The notes under the pieces are model-generated. The model had not been told where the DNA came from and did not search any database. It saw only the letters and a program-made list of their open reading frames with translations. Source: Acidobacteriota bacterium (GTDB lineage: Bacteria > Acidobacteriota > UBA4820). From it: a DNA stretch of 64,000 nt. How positions within the stretch are numbered: position 1 is the stretch's first letter; every line of letters begins with the position of its first letter. The stretch spans positions 1-64,000 of the forward strand of contig JAKQCT010000061.1 of assembly GCA_029559035.1 (NCBI GenBank), in the 5' to 3' direction. A program made the translations under genes and the position numbers. Of this stretch, positions 15,066 through 23,162 are shown one piece after another.

Positions 15066-15141
15066 TGGCAGGCCAGGAGGGACTCGAACCCCCAACACCC
15101 GGTTTTGGAGACCGGTACTCTACCACTTGAGCTACTGGCCT
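15066..15141 (-). tRNA. tRNA-Trp (CCA)
   Basis: The 76-base cloverleaf has acceptor AGGCCAG/CTGGCCT and an anticodon stem CCGGT/ACCGG closing loop CTCCAAA, giving anticodon CCA. The discriminator is G and the 3' CCA is encoded. It lies between rpmG and secE, the conserved trpT position. Confidence 0.97.
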
Positions 15142-15149
15142 ATTAAGCG

Positions 15150-15299
15150 TCATTTCACTTCCTTGTGAGGCTTGTGAGCCCTGCAGAAGGGGCAGTACTT
15201 CTTCGTCTCGAGCTTTTCCTGATGTTTCTTCTTATTCTTGGTGGTGGTGTAATTTTTTCTCTTGCACTCTGTGCATTGCAGATGTATCAGGTCGCGCAT
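15150..15299 (-). CDS. rpmG: 50S ribosomal protein L33
   Basis: This 49-residue protein is very short but unambiguous: [12 protein letters not shown], then [12 protein letters not shown], then [13 protein letters not shown]. It is the zinc-ribbon (C+) form of L33, with two CxxC pairs (C9/C12 and C36/C39). It starts only 3 bases after the EF-Tu-like stop codon. It ends 8 bases before tRNA-Trp, so the transcript must be cut there to release the tRNA. Confidence 0.95.
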
Positions 15300-15302
15300 T
15301 TT

Positions 15303-16475
15303 TTACTCCATAACCTCGACTATCTTGCCGATTCCTATGTTTTTCCCGCCTTCCGAGATCGAGAAGGCGAATCCGTCTTCAGCGAAGAACTTGGACGCCA
15401 GCTTTACGCTCACGATGGCGCTGTCCCCCGGCATGACCATCTCCCTGTCGGGCGGAAGCTCGAAGGTGCCCACGGTCCTGGTCCCCCAGAAGGAAAAATC
15501 CGCCTTGAGCCCGCTCCTGAACGGAGTATCGCGCCCGCTCTCCTCCTTGCGGAAGATGTAGACGAGGGCACGGAAAGCTTTTACCGGTTTATTGCCTGTC
15601 AGGGCGGTGATGAAAGCACCGCCTTCCATTTCACCGGCTTTCACGCCCTCGATGTAAAGTGATGCCTGGGAAACCGCACAAGCCTTCTCGGCCTGCGTTC
15701 CTTCCGTCTCCAGGGCTTTCACGGCGATCTCCTTGACCTGGCCGCCGAGGATTATCCTCGCCCTGTCGTCCTTCTTCACGCATCCCTTCAGTATCGAACC
15801 CTTGGCCAGGGTCAGGCCGAAGGGCGCCTCGGACGATTCGTCTATCCTGAAGAAGAGAGGCTTGTCGGACTCGGAGGCCGGGTCCTCGATGATGGAGTCC
15901 AAGGCTTCCAGAACTGCAAAAAGGAAGGAGCACTTTGGGCAATCCTTTTGTCCGCAACCGCAGTTCCTCGCCAGAAGAGCGCTTCCCCTGACGGCAGGGC
16001 ACTTGTCAGCCGGAAAACCCTTCTCCTTAAGAAGTCCCCTGACCTCCGCTTCGACCATGTCCTGCAGGTGCGCGCTGACCATGTCCGCCTTGTTCAGGAC
16101 GAACACAAGGCTGGCCGCGCCGACTTCCTTGGCGAGTTGCAGATGTTCCCGCGTCTGCGGCATCGTGCCGTCCGCCGCGGAAACAACGAGAAGTATCCCG
16201 TCGATGGAATCCGAAGTGACAAGGCTCTTGATGAAATCCTGGTGGCTCGGGAAATCCAGCAGCCTGTAATCCCTGTTCTTGCCGGCGATCTTTAGCTCCG
16301 CCCTGTTCAGCTTGAGCCCCGGCCCGCTGTTCCCCGAAGCCGCGAGGTCGATCTGCTCGTAGGGGACCATGGTTGTCAGGCCGATCTTGGAAAAAGAGCT
16401 GCTCATCGCGGCCAGAAGAGAACTTTTACCATGGTCGACGTGACCGATAACTGCGATAGTAAGTTCTTTCGCCAT
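15303..16475 (-). CDS. Highly divergent EF-Tu-like GTPase at the tufB position
   Basis: The 390-residue protein has EF-Tu length and three-domain layout and occupies exactly the tufB slot, after four tRNA genes and before rpmG. Kept features are the P-loop GHVDHGKS (11-18), MPQTREH (105-111), NKAD (128-131), GSAL (164-167) and the domain-3 end (SEGGKNIGIG). Altered features: switch I GITI has become GLKL (53-56), losing the Mg-linked Thr; DCPGH has become DFPSH (74-78), losing the G3 glycine but keeping the His; and the domain-2 GRGTVVTGRVERG motif is replaced. A four-cysteine cluster (C172, C174, C179, C182) is added. It may be a degenerate second EF-Tu with a changed role, or the only EF-Tu of the lineage. 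The start ATG at 16475 is chosen because it matches the MAKE- opening. Confidence 0.85.
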   Translation of the reverse strand: MAKELTIAVIGHVDHGKSSLLAAMSSSFSKIGLTTMVPYEQIDLAASGNSGPGLKLNRAELKIAGKNRDYRLLDFPSHQDFIKSLVTSDSIDGILLVVSAADGTMPQTREHLQLAKEVGAASLVFVLNKADMVSAHLQDMVEAEVRGLLKEKGFPADKCPAVRGSALLARNCGCGQKDCPKCSFLFAVLEALDSIIEDPASESDKPLFFRIDESSEAPFGLTLAKGSILKGCVKKDDRARIILGGQVKEIAVKALETEGTQAEKACAVSQASLYIEGVKAGEMEGGAFITALTGNKPVKAFRALVYIFRKEESGRDTPFRSGLKADFSFWGTRTVGTFELPPDREMVMPGDSAIVSVKLASKFFAEDGFAFSISEGGKNIGIGKIVEVME

Positions 16476-16505: not shown

Positions 16506-16581
<76 letters not shown>

Positions 16582-16606: not shown

Positions 16607-16707
16607 TGGTGGCAAAGGGGATTCTTCCCCTCGCCGGCTCCCCTGAGGTCGCGGTCCCTCATCCCCTCGGAGGCGCAGAAATGGAGCGGGCGACGGGATT
16701 CGGACCC
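16607..16707. repeat. 101-bp direct repeat, copy 1 (partner 16787-16887)
   Basis: This copy matches 16787-16887 at 99 of 101 positions with an offset of exactly 180 bp. It covers the downstream flank of tRNA-Gly plus the last 26 bases of the tRNA. The remaining 79 bp between copies are unrelated. The flank contains a small GGGG..CCCC hairpin. No protein-coding gene is seen between the two flanking tRNAs. Confidence 0.9.
16682..16707 (-). pseudogene. 3'-terminal fragment of tRNA-Gly
   Basis: Twenty-six bases identical to the 3' end of tRNA-Gly(TCC): the 3' half of the T-arm, the acceptor strand and CCA. The rest of the tRNA is missing. It arose with the 101-bp duplication and is transcribed in the same direction, between tRNA-Gly and tRNA-Thr(GGT). 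Confidence 0.85.
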
Positions 16708-16786: not shown

Positions 16787-16887
16787 TGGTGGCGAAGGGG
16801 ATTCTTCCCCTCGCCGGCTCCCCTGAGGTCGCGGTCCCTCATCCCCTCGGGGGCGCAGAAATGGAGCGGGCGACGGGATTCGGACCC
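16787..16887. repeat. 101-bp direct repeat, copy 2
   Basis: This is the partner of 16607-16707. It overlaps the 3' end of the intact tRNA-Gly(TCC) and is therefore likely the original copy. Confidence 0.9.
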
Positions 16888-17453: not shown

Positions 17454-20141
17454 ATGAAGAGAGTGATCGGCAAGATGGTTTTCGTGATCCTCTGCGCTCT
17501 GATCGCGGGCTCGATGTCCGCCTTCGCGCAGGTAACGCCTCAGTGGATCGGGGTCAATGCCCTAATGCCCCAGGCAATGTACTGGTCGGCCGTCTGTACC
17601 TACAACGGCAAGGTTTACGTGTTCGGCGGGAACGCCAACGACGCGGAGACGAACACGACCTATATCTATGACCCCTCTTCCGACACGTGGACTAAGGGCG
17701 CGAACATGCCCACCCCAAGGTATCTCTGCACTGCCGCGGAAGTTGACGGAAAGATCTATGTCATGGGCGGAAGGCAGCTCGTCGCCTCCCTCAACCCCGT
17801 GGATGCCAACGAGTGCTACGACCCGGCCACCAACACCTGGACAAGCAAGACGAAGATGCCCAACGCGATCCGCGGCCACGCGGCCTGCACGGCGAACGGA
17901 AAGATCTATGTCCTGGGCGGCAACACGGGCGCGTACAGCGATACCGTTACCATTTACGACCCGACAGCCAACAGCTGGGCCAACGGGACCAAGCTTCCCG
18001 CAAAGTCAGCTTACGGCGGCGCGGTTTATTCTTCTTCGGCCAACTCGATCGTCTATACCGGCGGAGTTAAAAGCAGCACCGACTCGGCCTCCAATTTCAT
18101 CGGCAAAGTCTTCGTCTTCAGCCTAAGCTCGGGCTCCTGGGACGCTGGAACGGCCATGCCTGACAAGACCGCGTACTACGGCCTCGCCACGAACGCCGAC
18201 GGCTCCCAGGTTTACATCGTTGGCGGTTCCATGTGGGACTCGGGCTCTTCAGCGACCGTCTCTTATCCTTACACGCAGGTTTTCTACACCGCGTCGAAGA
18301 CCTTCGACAATGAAGGGCTCTACCACCCCAGCCCGTGGAACCGAGAGAACTGCAACGCCGCGTTCGCCAACGGGACTCTCTACATCCTCGGCGGCGACGG
18401 TAACGCTCTCATCGATTCAGGCAACCCAGACACGGGCGAGTTCTACGAGCCCAACTTCCCGATCAACGACGGAAGCAGCTACGCCTACATCTCCGGCGGA
18501 GTCAGCGGCGCGATCAACGGCAAGTTCTATGTCGTCGATGGAGGATTCTATGTGCCCCTCACGGGCTCGGTTTACGCGTACGATCCCGGCTCCAACACGT
18601 GGGCGAAGAAGAACGGGACCGACCCGGCGCCCAGGATGTACGCGACCGGCGGCCAGTGGAACGACAAGGTTGTCGTATATGGCGGAATGGTCGAGGATGG
18701 GAGCGTTGTTGCCACCGCGACCGTTTACGATCCTCTCGCCGACACATTCACTGCTTACGCGAACTCGAATCCCAACCTCAGCATTTTCGAAACAAGCGTG
18801 GTCCTCAACGACAAGCTTTACGTGATTGGCGGAAGGCCGGACCCTTCGGACGCTGAGACCCTCAGCAAGAAGGTCAGCATCCTCGACCTCAACAGCGGCG
18901 CATGGTCCACAGGGGCCGACATGCCCGTCGCGATCGAACAGGCAGCGGCGGCGGCTTACAACAACAAGATCTACCTCTTCGGCGGAATCGACAACGTGGA
19001 ATCCGATTACATCAACGAAAAGGTATACATCTACGACCCCTCAGCCAACTCCTGGACAACGGGCCCGTCGCAGAGCCAGTACAATCAGGCCTACGGCGCG
19101 ATCGCTTTCCCCTACGGCAATTACATCCTCGTGGACTCCGGCTATAACCTCTGGTACAACGACATCCTCGGCGGACTCTCCGGCGGAATGCTCGGAAGCA
19201 TGCAGGTCTTCGATCCCTCAGCCGGCGCGTTCAAGACGGAAGCCCAGCGCCCCTTCGGCAAGATGAGGCAGTGTTCGGCCGTGATCGGCGGCAATTATTA
19301 TTCAACTGCCGGTGAGGATCCCGACTGGCCGGTCACCCGTCTCGACATCGCCAATTTTGGCGGCGCGCCCGTCTGCACGGTGACATGCACTGCTACCGCC
19401 AACCCCACATCGGGCCAGGCCCCGCTGACGGTCAACTTCACCGGTTCAGCTACCGCTACCAACTGCACCGGCACTCCGACCTACGCCTGGACATTCGGCG
19501 ACGGCGGAAATTCCACCGAACAGAGCCCCTCGCACACTTACCAGGCTGACGGCACCTACAACTGGAGCATGACGGCCACGGTCGACAACAAGACCTGCAC
19601 GAAGTCCGGCACGGTCACCGTCGGCGGCGCCGCCCAGTGCACGGTAACCTGCGACGCCACCGCCACCGCCACCGCTCTCAACGTCGCCTTCACCGGCACG
19701 GCAACCGCGACCAACTGCACGGGAACCCCGACCTACGCCTGGACCTTCGGCGACGGCGGGACCTCCACCGAACAGAACCCCACCCATGCCTACACCGCAG
19801 CGGGTTCCTACGACTGGACTCTCACCGTCAGCGTTGACGGCGAGCAGTGCTCCAAGACGGGCACGGTTGTCGTCGGCGGCGTGACGCCTCCGACCATCTC
19901 CAGAGTTTCAAAAGCCGCCAGCCCGTTCCGCCTGATCGTTATGGGAAGCAACTTCCAGAGCGGATGCATCGTTCACATCAACGGCAACCCCGTCCCCACC
20001 ACCACCTTCAAAAGCTCCACGAAGGTCGTGGCCAAGAAGGGCGCGGCCCTCAAGGCATACGTCCCCAAGGGAGTGGCAGTCCAGGTAACGGTCGTGAACC
20101 CGGACGGCGGCGTTTCCGCTGCATACACCTACACCAGGTAA
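17454..20141 (+). CDS. Secreted kelch-repeat protein with two PKD domains and C-terminal IPT-like domain
   Basis: The 895-residue protein is predicted to be exported. Residues 1-25 form a signal peptide ending AFAQ. Residues about 30-630 are kelch-type beta-propeller blades, with repeated YVFGG/YVMGG/YVLGG strands followed by YDP...W motifs; they probably form two propellers. Two PKD domains follow (about 640-810), each with WTFGDGG and TYQADGTY-like motifs. Each opens with a CxVTC cysteine pair, which may form disulfides outside the cell. The last 80 residues resemble an IPT/TIG fold. A GGAGG site precedes the ATG. The role is unknown; surface binding or a matrix is plausible. The next gene is a paralog. 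Confidence 0.85.
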   Translation: MKRVIGKMVFVILCALIAGSMSAFAQVTPQWIGVNALMPQAMYWSAVCTYNGKVYVFGGNANDAETNTTYIYDPSSDTWTKGANMPTPRYLCTAAEVDGKIYVMGGRQLVASLNPVDANECYDPATNTWTSKTKMPNAIRGHAACTANGKIYVLGGNTGAYSDTVTIYDPTANSWANGTKLPAKSAYGGAVYSSSANSIVYTGGVKSSTDSASNFIGKVFVFSLSSGSWDAGTAMPDKTAYYGLATNADGSQVYIVGGSMWDSGSSATVSYPYTQVFYTASKTFDNEGLYHPSPWNRENCNAAFANGTLYILGGDGNALIDSGNPDTGEFYEPNFPINDGSSYAYISGGVSGAINGKFYVVDGGFYVPLTGSVYAYDPGSNTWAKKNGTDPAPRMYATGGQWNDKVVVYGGMVEDGSVVATATVYDPLADTFTAYANSNPNLSIFETSVVLNDKLYVIGGRPDPSDAETLSKKVSILDLNSGAWSTGADMPVAIEQAAAAAYNNKIYLFGGIDNVESDYINEKVYIYDPSANSWTTGPSQSQYNQAYGAIAFPYGNYILVDSGYNLWYNDILGGLSGGMLGSMQVFDPSAGAFKTEAQRPFGKMRQCSAVIGGNYYSTAGEDPDWPVTRLDIANFGGAPVCTVTCTATANPTSGQAPLTVNFTGSATATNCTGTPTYAWTFGDGGNSTEQSPSHTYQADGTYNWSMTATVDNKTCTKSGTVTVGGAAQCTVTCDATATATALNVAFTGTATATNCTGTPTYAWTFGDGGTSTEQNPTHAYTAAGSYDWTLTVSVDGEQCSKTGTVVVGGVTPPTISRVSKAASPFRLIVMGSNFQSGCIVHINGNPVPTTTFKSSTKVVAKKGAALKAYVPKGVAVQVTVVNPDGGVSAAYTYTR

Positions 20142-20192: not shown

Positions 20193-20225
20193 ATGGTATC
20201 CTACTTTCTTTTTTGGAGGACGGAT

Positions 20226-23162
20226 ATGAAATCCAGGATGCTGTCAATTCTCATTCTTATACTTATGTTGCCCGCCGCAACGGCAGCGGCGGTAACGTCT
20301 CTGACATGGACCGGGACGAGATCGCTCCCCCCTAAAAGCGTGGAAGCCGCCTCTTCGGCCGTTTACAACCAGAAGGTCTACCTCTTCGGAGGGCTGGTTT
20401 ACGACGCGGAGCAGAACGGCACCCTTATCTACGACCCCGCTTCAGACTCCTGGACAACGGGGGCTGACATGCCGACCGCAAGGTATTTCTCATCTGCTGC
20501 GGAGGCAGGGGGGAAGATCTATGTCTTCGGAGGCGCGAAACTCCAGAGCGGGTCTTCGGTCTCCCAGACGGCTTGCGAGGTCTACGATCCCTCATCCGAC
20601 AGCTGGACAACCGCCGCTCCCCTCCCGGCGGCGCTGAGGGGACATTCGGCCGTTTCCGCCAACGGGCACATTTATCTCCTGGGCGGAAAAACCGGTTCTT
20701 CGTTCAACGGAACCGTATATGAGTTCGACCCGGGAACCGGGTCCTGGTCCTCCTTTTCCGCGGCACCGTTCTCGGCTGCCTACGGAACCGCTGTTTTCTC
20801 GGCATCGGAAAACGTCATTTACTATATCGGCGGGCTGATAAGCGACACGCCCTCCGCGGCGAGCTACCTCGGGAAAGCTTATTCGATGAACGCCTCAAGC
20901 GGCGCGTGGGAATCCGACACCTACTCGATGCCATTCCCTGTCAGTAATTTCGGGGCCGCGATGGATCCCTCGACGGGTCTCGTCTATCTTGTGGGCGGAA
21001 TCTTCTATTCGGGATACGAACTTCCCTTTCCCGACATCCAGATTTTCAATACTGAAAGCCACATGTTCATGTCAGGCACTCTGCCGATACTCCCGGGGCC
21101 TCTCAGCAGGTTCAACAACTGCGCCGCCGTGGTCTCGGGAAAACTCTGCCTGGTCTCCGGCGCGGGAGTCGCCGTTGTCGATGTCTTCAACATAACCGGC
21201 AACAGCTGGTACCAGCCGAACTCTCCGATGAACGAGGGAGGAAACGAGGTTTACAACGCCGGAGGAGCTGGAGCAGCCGTCAGCGGGAATTTCGTGTGCG
21301 CCGACGGAGGCTTTTTCCTTCCCCTCACCGGCGCGGTCCATTCATACGCACCGGCGGGCAACGCGTGGACTCTCAAAGATGGCACGGATCCCCAGCCCAG
21401 GACCTATTCCGCCTTCGGCGAACACGACGGAAAACTCGTGATCGCGGGGGGAATGGACGGCAACGCCAATGTCCTGAACACTGTTTCTATTTACGATCCT
21501 TCGGCCGACAGCTTTTCCCTCGCCTCAGGCCATGATCCTTATCCGGCAATATTCTCCGCAGGAGCGGTTTACAACGGCAGCCTTTACCTTTTCGGCGGAA
21601 GGACGGTACCTTCGGACGAGAATTCCCTCAGCGTCAAAACCCGCGTCTTCGACATTTCCAGCGGGACTTTCTCCGCCGGCCCCGACCTTCCTTTCGCCAT
21701 CGAACAAGCTGCGGCGTCTACGGTGGGCGATCGCATCTACATTTTCGGAGGCTCGACGCTGGCCGGCCCGGACTTCATGAACAAGAACGTCCTCATCTTC
21801 GATCCCGGCGCCTCGTCCTTCACCCAGGGGCCTGCGATCCCGTATCCCGTTTACGGCCCTTCCGCTGTCTCCTACGGCACCAGCGTCCTGGTGGATTCCG
21901 GCTACTACATTTTTTACAGCACGAAGCTGGGAGGCTTCGGAGGAGGCCCGCTCAGCCTAGTTCAAATCTATGACACGCAGAGCGGGACGTTCTCACTGAT
22001 CCCCCGTCCATTCGGCAAGATCAACCACAACACGGCGGTCATCGGGACAAGGTTCTACTCGACAGCCGGGGAGGATGGTTCGTGGCCCTCATCGAGGCTC
22101 GACATCGCAGATATCGTCTCGAGCGGTTGCAGCTTCACGTGCACTGCATCCGCAACACCTGAATCGGGTGCGAAACCTCTTGAAGTAGATTTTTCGGCAA
22201 CGGCGGACGGGTCCGGCTGCAGCGGCTCCCCTTCATTCGCCTGGACCTTCGGCGACGGTGGCTCTTCGACATCGCAGAATCCCGCCCACACTTACGAGAA
22301 CGACGGAAGCTACGACTGGAGCCTCACCGTGACATGGGGCGGCCGGACATGCTCCCAGAGCGGGACAATCACAGTGGGAGGATGCGTCGTCTCCTGCGAA
22401 GCGGTCCTTTCCGCCACGTCAGGTTACGCCCCTCTCGCCGTTGATTATTCGGCATCTTCCACCGCGACGGGCTGTTCTTCCGAAGTGACATACTCCTGGG
22501 ATTTCGGGGACGAATCCACTTCGACAGATCAGACCGGCACGCACACGTACACGACCCCCGGCACCTACACCTGCACTTTGACTGCAACAGCCGACGAGAC
22601 CGACTGCACGAAAACGGCCACGATAACGGTGACCGAACCTGGAAGCTGTTCTGTCACCTGTGAGGCCTCCGCTTCTCCATCGAGCGGCAATGCGCCGCTC
22701 AGTGTGAGTTTCACTTCGGTCGTCACACCGACGAACTGCTCCGGTGCGACATCTTATCTCTGGAACTTCGGCGACGGAACAACGTCGGTCGAGCAGAACC
22801 CCGTCCATGTCTTCTCCCAGGCAGGCAGTTACGGCTGGTCGCTGACAGTCACGGTAGACGGTGTGACCTGCTCAAAGACAGGTTCGGTCACCGTCGCAAG
22901 CGCATCGGGGCCAGTGGTTACAAGCGTTTCCAAGGCTCCAAGCCCGTTCAGGCTGAAAGTTATAGGGAACGGGTTCGAGAGCGGCGCCCAAGTGCTGATC
23001 AACGGAGTCGTGGTCCCTCAGACCAAATTCAAGAGCTACAGCTTCCTCATCGCAAAAAAAGGAGCCGCCTTGAAAGCCATGTGTCCCAAAGGCGTCACTG
23101 TAAAGGTCACCGTCAAGAACCCGGACGGCAAGGTTTCCAACGAGTTCAACTACACGAGGTAA
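20226..23162 (+). CDS. Secreted kelch-repeat protein with three PKD domains and C-terminal IPT-like domain
   Basis: This 978-residue paralog of the preceding protein starts at the ATG at 20226, just after GGAGGACGGAT. Earlier in-frame codons would precede the ribosome binding site. It has a signal peptide (residues 1-22, ending ATAAAV), kelch blades to about residue 635, and three PKD domains instead of two. Each PKD opens with a CxxxC pair. The IPT-like tail closely matches the first protein (PFRLKVIGNGF, AKKGAALKAMCPKGV). The duplication has kept both ends and changed PKD number. It is probably a tandem duplication product with a related surface role. The function is not known. Confidence 0.85.
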   Translation: MKSRMLSILILILMLPAATAAAVTSLTWTGTRSLPPKSVEAASSAVYNQKVYLFGGLVYDAEQNGTLIYDPASDSWTTGADMPTARYFSSAAEAGGKIYVFGGAKLQSGSSVSQTACEVYDPSSDSWTTAAPLPAALRGHSAVSANGHIYLLGGKTGSSFNGTVYEFDPGTGSWSSFSAAPFSAAYGTAVFSASENVIYYIGGLISDTPSAASYLGKAYSMNASSGAWESDTYSMPFPVSNFGAAMDPSTGLVYLVGGIFYSGYELPFPDIQIFNTESHMFMSGTLPILPGPLSRFNNCAAVVSGKLCLVSGAGVAVVDVFNITGNSWYQPNSPMNEGGNEVYNAGGAGAAVSGNFVCADGGFFLPLTGAVHSYAPAGNAWTLKDGTDPQPRTYSAFGEHDGKLVIAGGMDGNANVLNTVSIYDPSADSFSLASGHDPYPAIFSAGAVYNGSLYLFGGRTVPSDENSLSVKTRVFDISSGTFSAGPDLPFAIEQAAASTVGDRIYIFGGSTLAGPDFMNKNVLIFDPGASSFTQGPAIPYPVYGPSAVSYGTSVLVDSGYYIFYSTKLGGFGGGPLSLVQIYDTQSGTFSLIPRPFGKINHNTAVIGTRFYSTAGEDGSWPSSRLDIADIVSSGCSFTCTASATPESGAKPLEVDFSATADGSGCSGSPSFAWTFGDGGSSTSQNPAHTYENDGSYDWSLTVTWGGRTCSQSGTITVGGCVVSCEAVLSATSGYAPLAVDYSASSTATGCSSEVTYSWDFGDESTSTDQTGTHTYTTPGTYTCTLTATADETDCTKTATITVTEPGSCSVTCEASASPSSGNAPLSVSFTSVVTPTNCSGATSYLWNFGDGTTSVEQNPVHVFSQAGSYGWSLTVTVDGVTCSKTGSVTVASASGPVVTSVSKAPSPFRLKVIGNGFESGAQVLINGVVVPQTKFKSYSFLIAKKGAALKAMCPKGVTVKVTVKNPDGKVSNEFNYTR

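Follow-up and report, generated by a model that had tools for sequence, protein, structure and literature searches.

An EF-Tu-derived protein in the tufB slot of an Acidobacteriota family that probably no longer carries aminoacyl-tRNA

EF-Tu is among the slowest-changing proteins known, and as a rule gene conversion prevents any divergence between the two copies of its gene. The locus described here raises the question of what an EF-Tu-derived protein is kept for when it occupies the tufB slot and departs from EF-Tu at the residues that sense GTP and hold tRNA. The window analysed comprises 64,000 nucleotides of an Acidobacteriota bacterium (assembly GCA_029559035.1, contig JAKQCT010000061.1, positions 1 to 64,000). 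Its tufX gene is an intact open reading frame of 390 codons plus a stop, encoding a protein of 390 amino acids (TufX). An earlier note on this DNA had assigned the gene to the tufB slot, and this position is borne out by the flanking genes, which run in the order tRNA-Thr(tgt), tRNA-Tyr, tRNA-Gly, tRNA-Thr(ggt), tufX, rpmG, tRNA-Trp, secE, nusG, rplK, rplA, rplJ, rplL, rpoB. The gene and its immediate neighbours are as follows.

16506..16581, minus strand: tRNA-Thr(ggt), the nearest gene upstream of tufX
15303..16475, minus strand: tufX, EF-Tu-derived, in the tufB slot (open reading frame and profile matches)
15150..15299, minus strand: rpmG, starting 3 nt past the tufX stop
15066..15141, minus strand: tRNA-Trp(cca), downstream of rpmG

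Besides the 3-nt gap between tufX and rpmG (15297-15308), an AGGAG ahead of rpmG sits within the last tufX codons in two related genomes (G001 and G003; L053:2025-2060), which suggests translational coupling. The tufX leader contains a 101-nt direct repeat (98%; 16607-16707 and 16787-16887). Its second copy extends into the 3' end of tRNA-Gly(tcc); an orphan tRNA-Gly 3' end is therefore present in the first. A weak promoter-like site was found at 17273-17245 (2 sites in the region vs 0.8 expected). Two large open reading frames that lie side by side (17454-20141 and 20193-23162) are apparent tandem paralogues; they have Kelch-like as well as PKD-like repeats and resemble each other in a C-terminal segment.

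The nearest matches of TufX in Pfam, NCBIfam and PDB sequences are EF-Tu proteins. Its score against the EF-Tu model TIGR00485 is 270.4 bits, about half of the equivalog cut-off of 522.4. An assignment to SelB was rejected, as the score against the SelB model (97.9 bits) is under the cut-off of 242, and EF-Tu domain 3 is the last part of the protein, up to residue 390, with no C-terminal SECIS-binding extension. The motif changes listed in the earlier note (GLKL for GITI, DFPSH for DCPGH, domain 2 without GRGTVVTGRVERG, His84 kept) are all present in the translation. Sequencing error, which that note had considered, is ruled out, since identical changes occur in intact frames in three further genomes. 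The relevant parts of the protein are listed below.

16422..16445, minus strand: P-loop GHVDHGKS (residues 11-18), kept
16305..16319, minus strand: end of switch I, GLKLN (residues 53-57), with EF-Tu Thr61 replaced by Lys55
16242..16256, minus strand: DFPSH (residues 74-78), with the DxxG glycine replaced by serine and His84 retained as H78
16083..16094, minus strand: NKAD (residues 128-131), guanine recognition, kept
15975..15986, minus strand: GSAL (residues 164-167), kept
15930..15962, minus strand: cysteine cluster C172-x-C-x4-C-x2-C182, inherited, likely a zinc knuckle
15603..15872, minus strand: domain 2 (about residues 202-291), with GRGTVVTGR and the aminoacyl pocket gone and the Pfam domain-2 match absent
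15306..15602, minus strand: domain 3 (about residues 292-390), with the Pfam GTP_EFTU_D3 match persisting and most T-stem contacts gone

The four tufX proteins were compared with a reference set of 48 orthodox EF-Tu rows, in which 166 positions are near-invariant; 54 of these positions survive in every tufX and 71 in none. The retained part includes the entire nucleotide site (11 of 11 residues of the P-loop, NKxD and SAL motifs) and His84, while the replacements of Thr61 by Lys and of Gly83 by Ser occur in four of four tufX and in none of the 48 orthodox rows. A fifth cysteine, C159, is likewise invariant in tufX and absent from that position in the reference set. Of the 12 contacts to the aminoacyl group, A76 and the 5'-phosphate, taken from a published list (PMC4329189), only two to three remain. 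Among the individual residues, Thr61, Gly83, His66, Phe218, Asn273 and Arg288 are lost, and K89 and E259 are retained. At the positions that we take to contact the T-stem, two to three of seven remain, and at those presumed to contact EF-Ts, six to seven of eight; the QTREH stretch is, as we assume, widespread in the broader EF1 family. EF-Ts as a putative partner of TufX is possible on these presumed contacts, and we consider it rather doubtful. No second EF-Ts was seen, each genome having one tsf gene where any was found.

The genome of the window (2.86 Mb, 95% complete) contains a second, orthodox tuf gene in the str operon, between fusA and rpsJ; tufX as the only EF-Tu of the genome is thereby rejected, and the tufB-slot copy is not the elongation factor. 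The str EF-Tu has an insert in switch I (RRDSTKILTIA), and a like insert is found in families f6 and f15 of the phylum. In three genomes (G016, G031 and G025) the single EF-Tu match is of this insert-bearing type, so that it can serve as a working EF-Tu. In addition to the insert, the str EF-Tu of the window's family has GSAW for GSAL in the G5 motif (L052:8296-9501, L045, L043). With an orthodox copy elsewhere, and with the tRNA pocket and the GTP-sensing residues gone, the proposal of the earlier note that the protein is a former EF-Tu, no longer acting as a standard elongation factor, holds up well: TufX has very probably ceased to be a standard aminoacyl-tRNA carrier.

An AlphaFold model of TufX, built from four sequences, has the three-domain EF-Tu fold with a pLDDT of 84, falling below 50 in switch I (residues 40-57). 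In Foldseek comparisons the model gave TM scores of 0.88-0.91 with open, GDP-type EF-Tus and 0.53 with the GTP forms 1EFT and 1TTT, the open form being suggestive only, as EF-Tu predictions without clustering were dominated by the closed form in a 2026 study (PMC13351119). The loss of Thr61 together with Gly83 also points to an open, GDP-like state. In Escherichia coli, EF-Tu T61E stays open with GDP and has a slight preference for this form with GDPNP; EF-Tu phosphorylated at T382 is trapped in the open form with EF-Ts binding kept (PMC5851678). Thus, a GTP-locked form, one of the possibilities raised earlier, is the less likely state in view of the lost residues, the predicted open conformation and the T61E precedent; a fixed open or GDP-like state of TufX, as modelled, appears reasonably probable.

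The distribution of substitutions indicates which part of the protein is maintained. Over the whole gene, dN/dS among tufX is about 0.06, with dS near saturation. The G domain (197 codons, pS 0.74) has a pN of 0.072 between two tufX genes (L014 and L053), against 0.224 for domain 2 and 0.189 for domain 3, at a pS of about 0.7; this low G-domain value relative to the other domains indicates that purifying selection has its focus there. In the str pair, amino-acid changes are nearly absent from all domains; domain 2 is the least variable part of that pair and the most variable part of tufX. A pseudogene is rejected, as the frames are intact and nonsynonymous change, lowest in the G domain, is far under synonymous. 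With ribosomal-protein genes as the reference set, the codon adaptation index of tufX is 0.571, under that of every ribosomal-protein gene tested (0.586-0.767); that of the str tuf is 0.666. A selected function distinct from elongation is, in our judgement, likely.

The history of the slot was followed in 13 genomes of the order, in ten of which it is assembled; the other three are uninformative and do not show a loss of the copy, as one contig stops after secE (G012), one genome yielded no nusG (G008) and one contig starts inside a tuf gene (G011). All ten assembled loci hold this EF-Tu lineage, in different states. The slot is occupied by an orthodox EF-Tu in G004, G006 and G007, by a partly degraded copy in G005 and G009 (Thr61 to Pro, Asn273 to Arg), by a strongly degraded copy in G010 (changes at the end of switch I, at Gly83 and in most of the pocket of domain 2), and by tufX in G000-G003, the four members of the window's family. 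Outside this family no tufX was found among 396 genomes of the phylum, the four tufX scoring 687-737 bits and all others at most 319. In three genomes of the order the two loci hold orthodox EF-Tus that differ from each other, where a near-identical pair would be usual (L055, L057 and L058 with L046, L048 and L049).

In the tree, the tufB-locus copies of the order and tufX fall into one group that excludes every other EF-Tu (support 93/99). A tree that joins tufX with the str copies instead scores 24 log units lower, which at p 0.094 is no formal rejection. As far as sequences can tell, tufX is a descendant of the tufB-locus EF-Tu and not of the str copy, the tree, the slot and the cysteine cluster being in agreement. 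In a quick tree, a path of 2.92 separates the window's tufX from its nearest relative, many times the distance between the str copies of these two genomes. In a tree of five genes from the neighbourhood, the genus of G005 falls with the genera whose copy is still orthodox (88/95) and not with the window's family, and the change therefore occurred at least twice.

The cysteine cluster was considered new in the earlier note, where a metal- or redox-controlled factor was one of the possibilities. A newly gained cluster that confers a function is not supported, as the cluster predates the divergence. The motif CGCGxxxCxxC after GSAL is also present in the orthodox tufB-slot EF-Tus of the same order (G004, G006 and G007), in EF-Tus of families f7, f19, f37 and f79 of the phylum, and, in variants, in EF-Tus of Atribacterota, Omnitrophota, Sporomusa and Syntrophomonadaceae; it was therefore inherited by tufX. 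In one genome rated 100% complete (G017), the cluster-bearing protein is the sole EF-Tu match. All four cysteines are retained in tufX despite heavy divergence. Since ordinary EF-Tus that are apparently alone in their genomes have this cluster too, it is likely better read as a structural zinc knuckle than as a switch. A literature search for zinc in EF-Tu, or for EF-Tus without tRNA binding, returned nothing relevant.

These results bear on several explanations of why the gene has been kept. A zinc- or redox-sensing GTPase with the cluster as its switch would agree with the survival of the four cysteines and with the invariant C159, but the occurrence of the cluster in ordinary, apparently sole EF-Tus makes such a sensor very improbable. 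TufX could instead be a redundant EF-Tu copy in slow decay, functionless itself and held in frame mainly for the coupled translation of rpmG. It does change faster than EF-Tu, partly degraded copies exist in G005, G009 and G010, and both the 3-nt gap and the AGGAG within the last tufX codons would fit coupling; however, coupling would not conserve the G domain as observed, nor does decay account for frames that are intact in four genomes or for new residues that are fixed there, and we regard it as unlikely.

An alternative EF-Tu for one or a few special tRNAs, which the earlier note had also proposed, or a stress- or antibiotic-resistant EF-Tu like EF-Tu3 of Streptomyces, where a condition-specific second EF-Tu is known (PMC4342817), would be consistent with the retained K89 and E259. 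It fits badly with the few pocket contacts left, with the loss of the six residues named above and with domain 2 being the part that varies most in tufX and least in the str pair, so that this role seems quite improbable. We favour, with some confidence, a displaced tufB EF-Tu, predicted to bind guanine nucleotides in an open form, to carry no aminoacyl-tRNA, and to be kept for another, probably regulatory, task.

For this displaced EF-Tu the following course can be proposed. The different EF-Tu of the str operon would have taken over tRNA delivery, which left the tufB copy free to change. Judging from the kept nucleotide site and the cysteine cluster, TufX would bind GDP or GTP and probably zinc. 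It would be unable to close on GTP or to carry aminoacyl-tRNA. More speculatively, it could have an accessory or regulatory role in translation, exerted through the face of its G domain, with EF-Ts or the ribosome as examples of what it might engage.

Among known systems, orthodox EF-Tu (TIGR00485, CGCGxxxCxxC type) shares with TufX the slot, descent, three-domain fold, P-loop, NKxD, SAL, His84 and cysteine cluster, whereas TufX is without the tRNA pocket, Thr61, the DxxG glycine and most T-stem contacts. A distinct second EF-Tu lineage beside the normal one is also found in some actinomycetes (actEF-Tu, or EF-Tu3 encoded by tuf3), and this is the one distinct bacterial EF-Tu subfamily named in a survey of translational GTPases (PMC4342817); by description it differs in serving translation under specific conditions and in resisting EF-Tu antibiotics, while in tufX the tRNA pocket is lost. 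The Methanosarcina protein aEF-X (MM1309) is a SelB/EF-Tu-like GTPase whose switches no longer sense the nucleotide, with one conformation with GDP and GMPPNP (PMC4329189); however, it is archaeal, of SelB/EF-Tu/aIF2-gamma-like origin, and protects Cys-tRNA(Cys), and no shared descent with tufX is claimed. The E. coli T61E and T382-phosphorylated forms resemble TufX in that a change of Thr61 favours the open form and T382 phosphorylation spares EF-Ts binding (PMC5851678), but phosphorylation is a reversible modification of a working factor and tufX is a separate gene.

What appears to be new here, on the evidence of sequence comparison, is an EF-Tu-derived protein minus the defining binding site of EF-Tu, found only in the window's family among the 396 genomes of the phylum. 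Tentatively, it may represent a second EF-Tu-derived bacterial subfamily free of tRNA handling, a nucleotide-binding regulator with a zinc knuckle, in an order where the two tuf loci escaped gene conversion and hold different types and where the tufB copy lost tRNA binding at least two times in parallel. One order thus has two EF-Tu types, one of them visible at four stages from a working factor to a rewritten protein in the same operon slot, so that it can be asked what a translation GTPase does without tRNA delivery, and which parts of EF-Tu serve otherwise.
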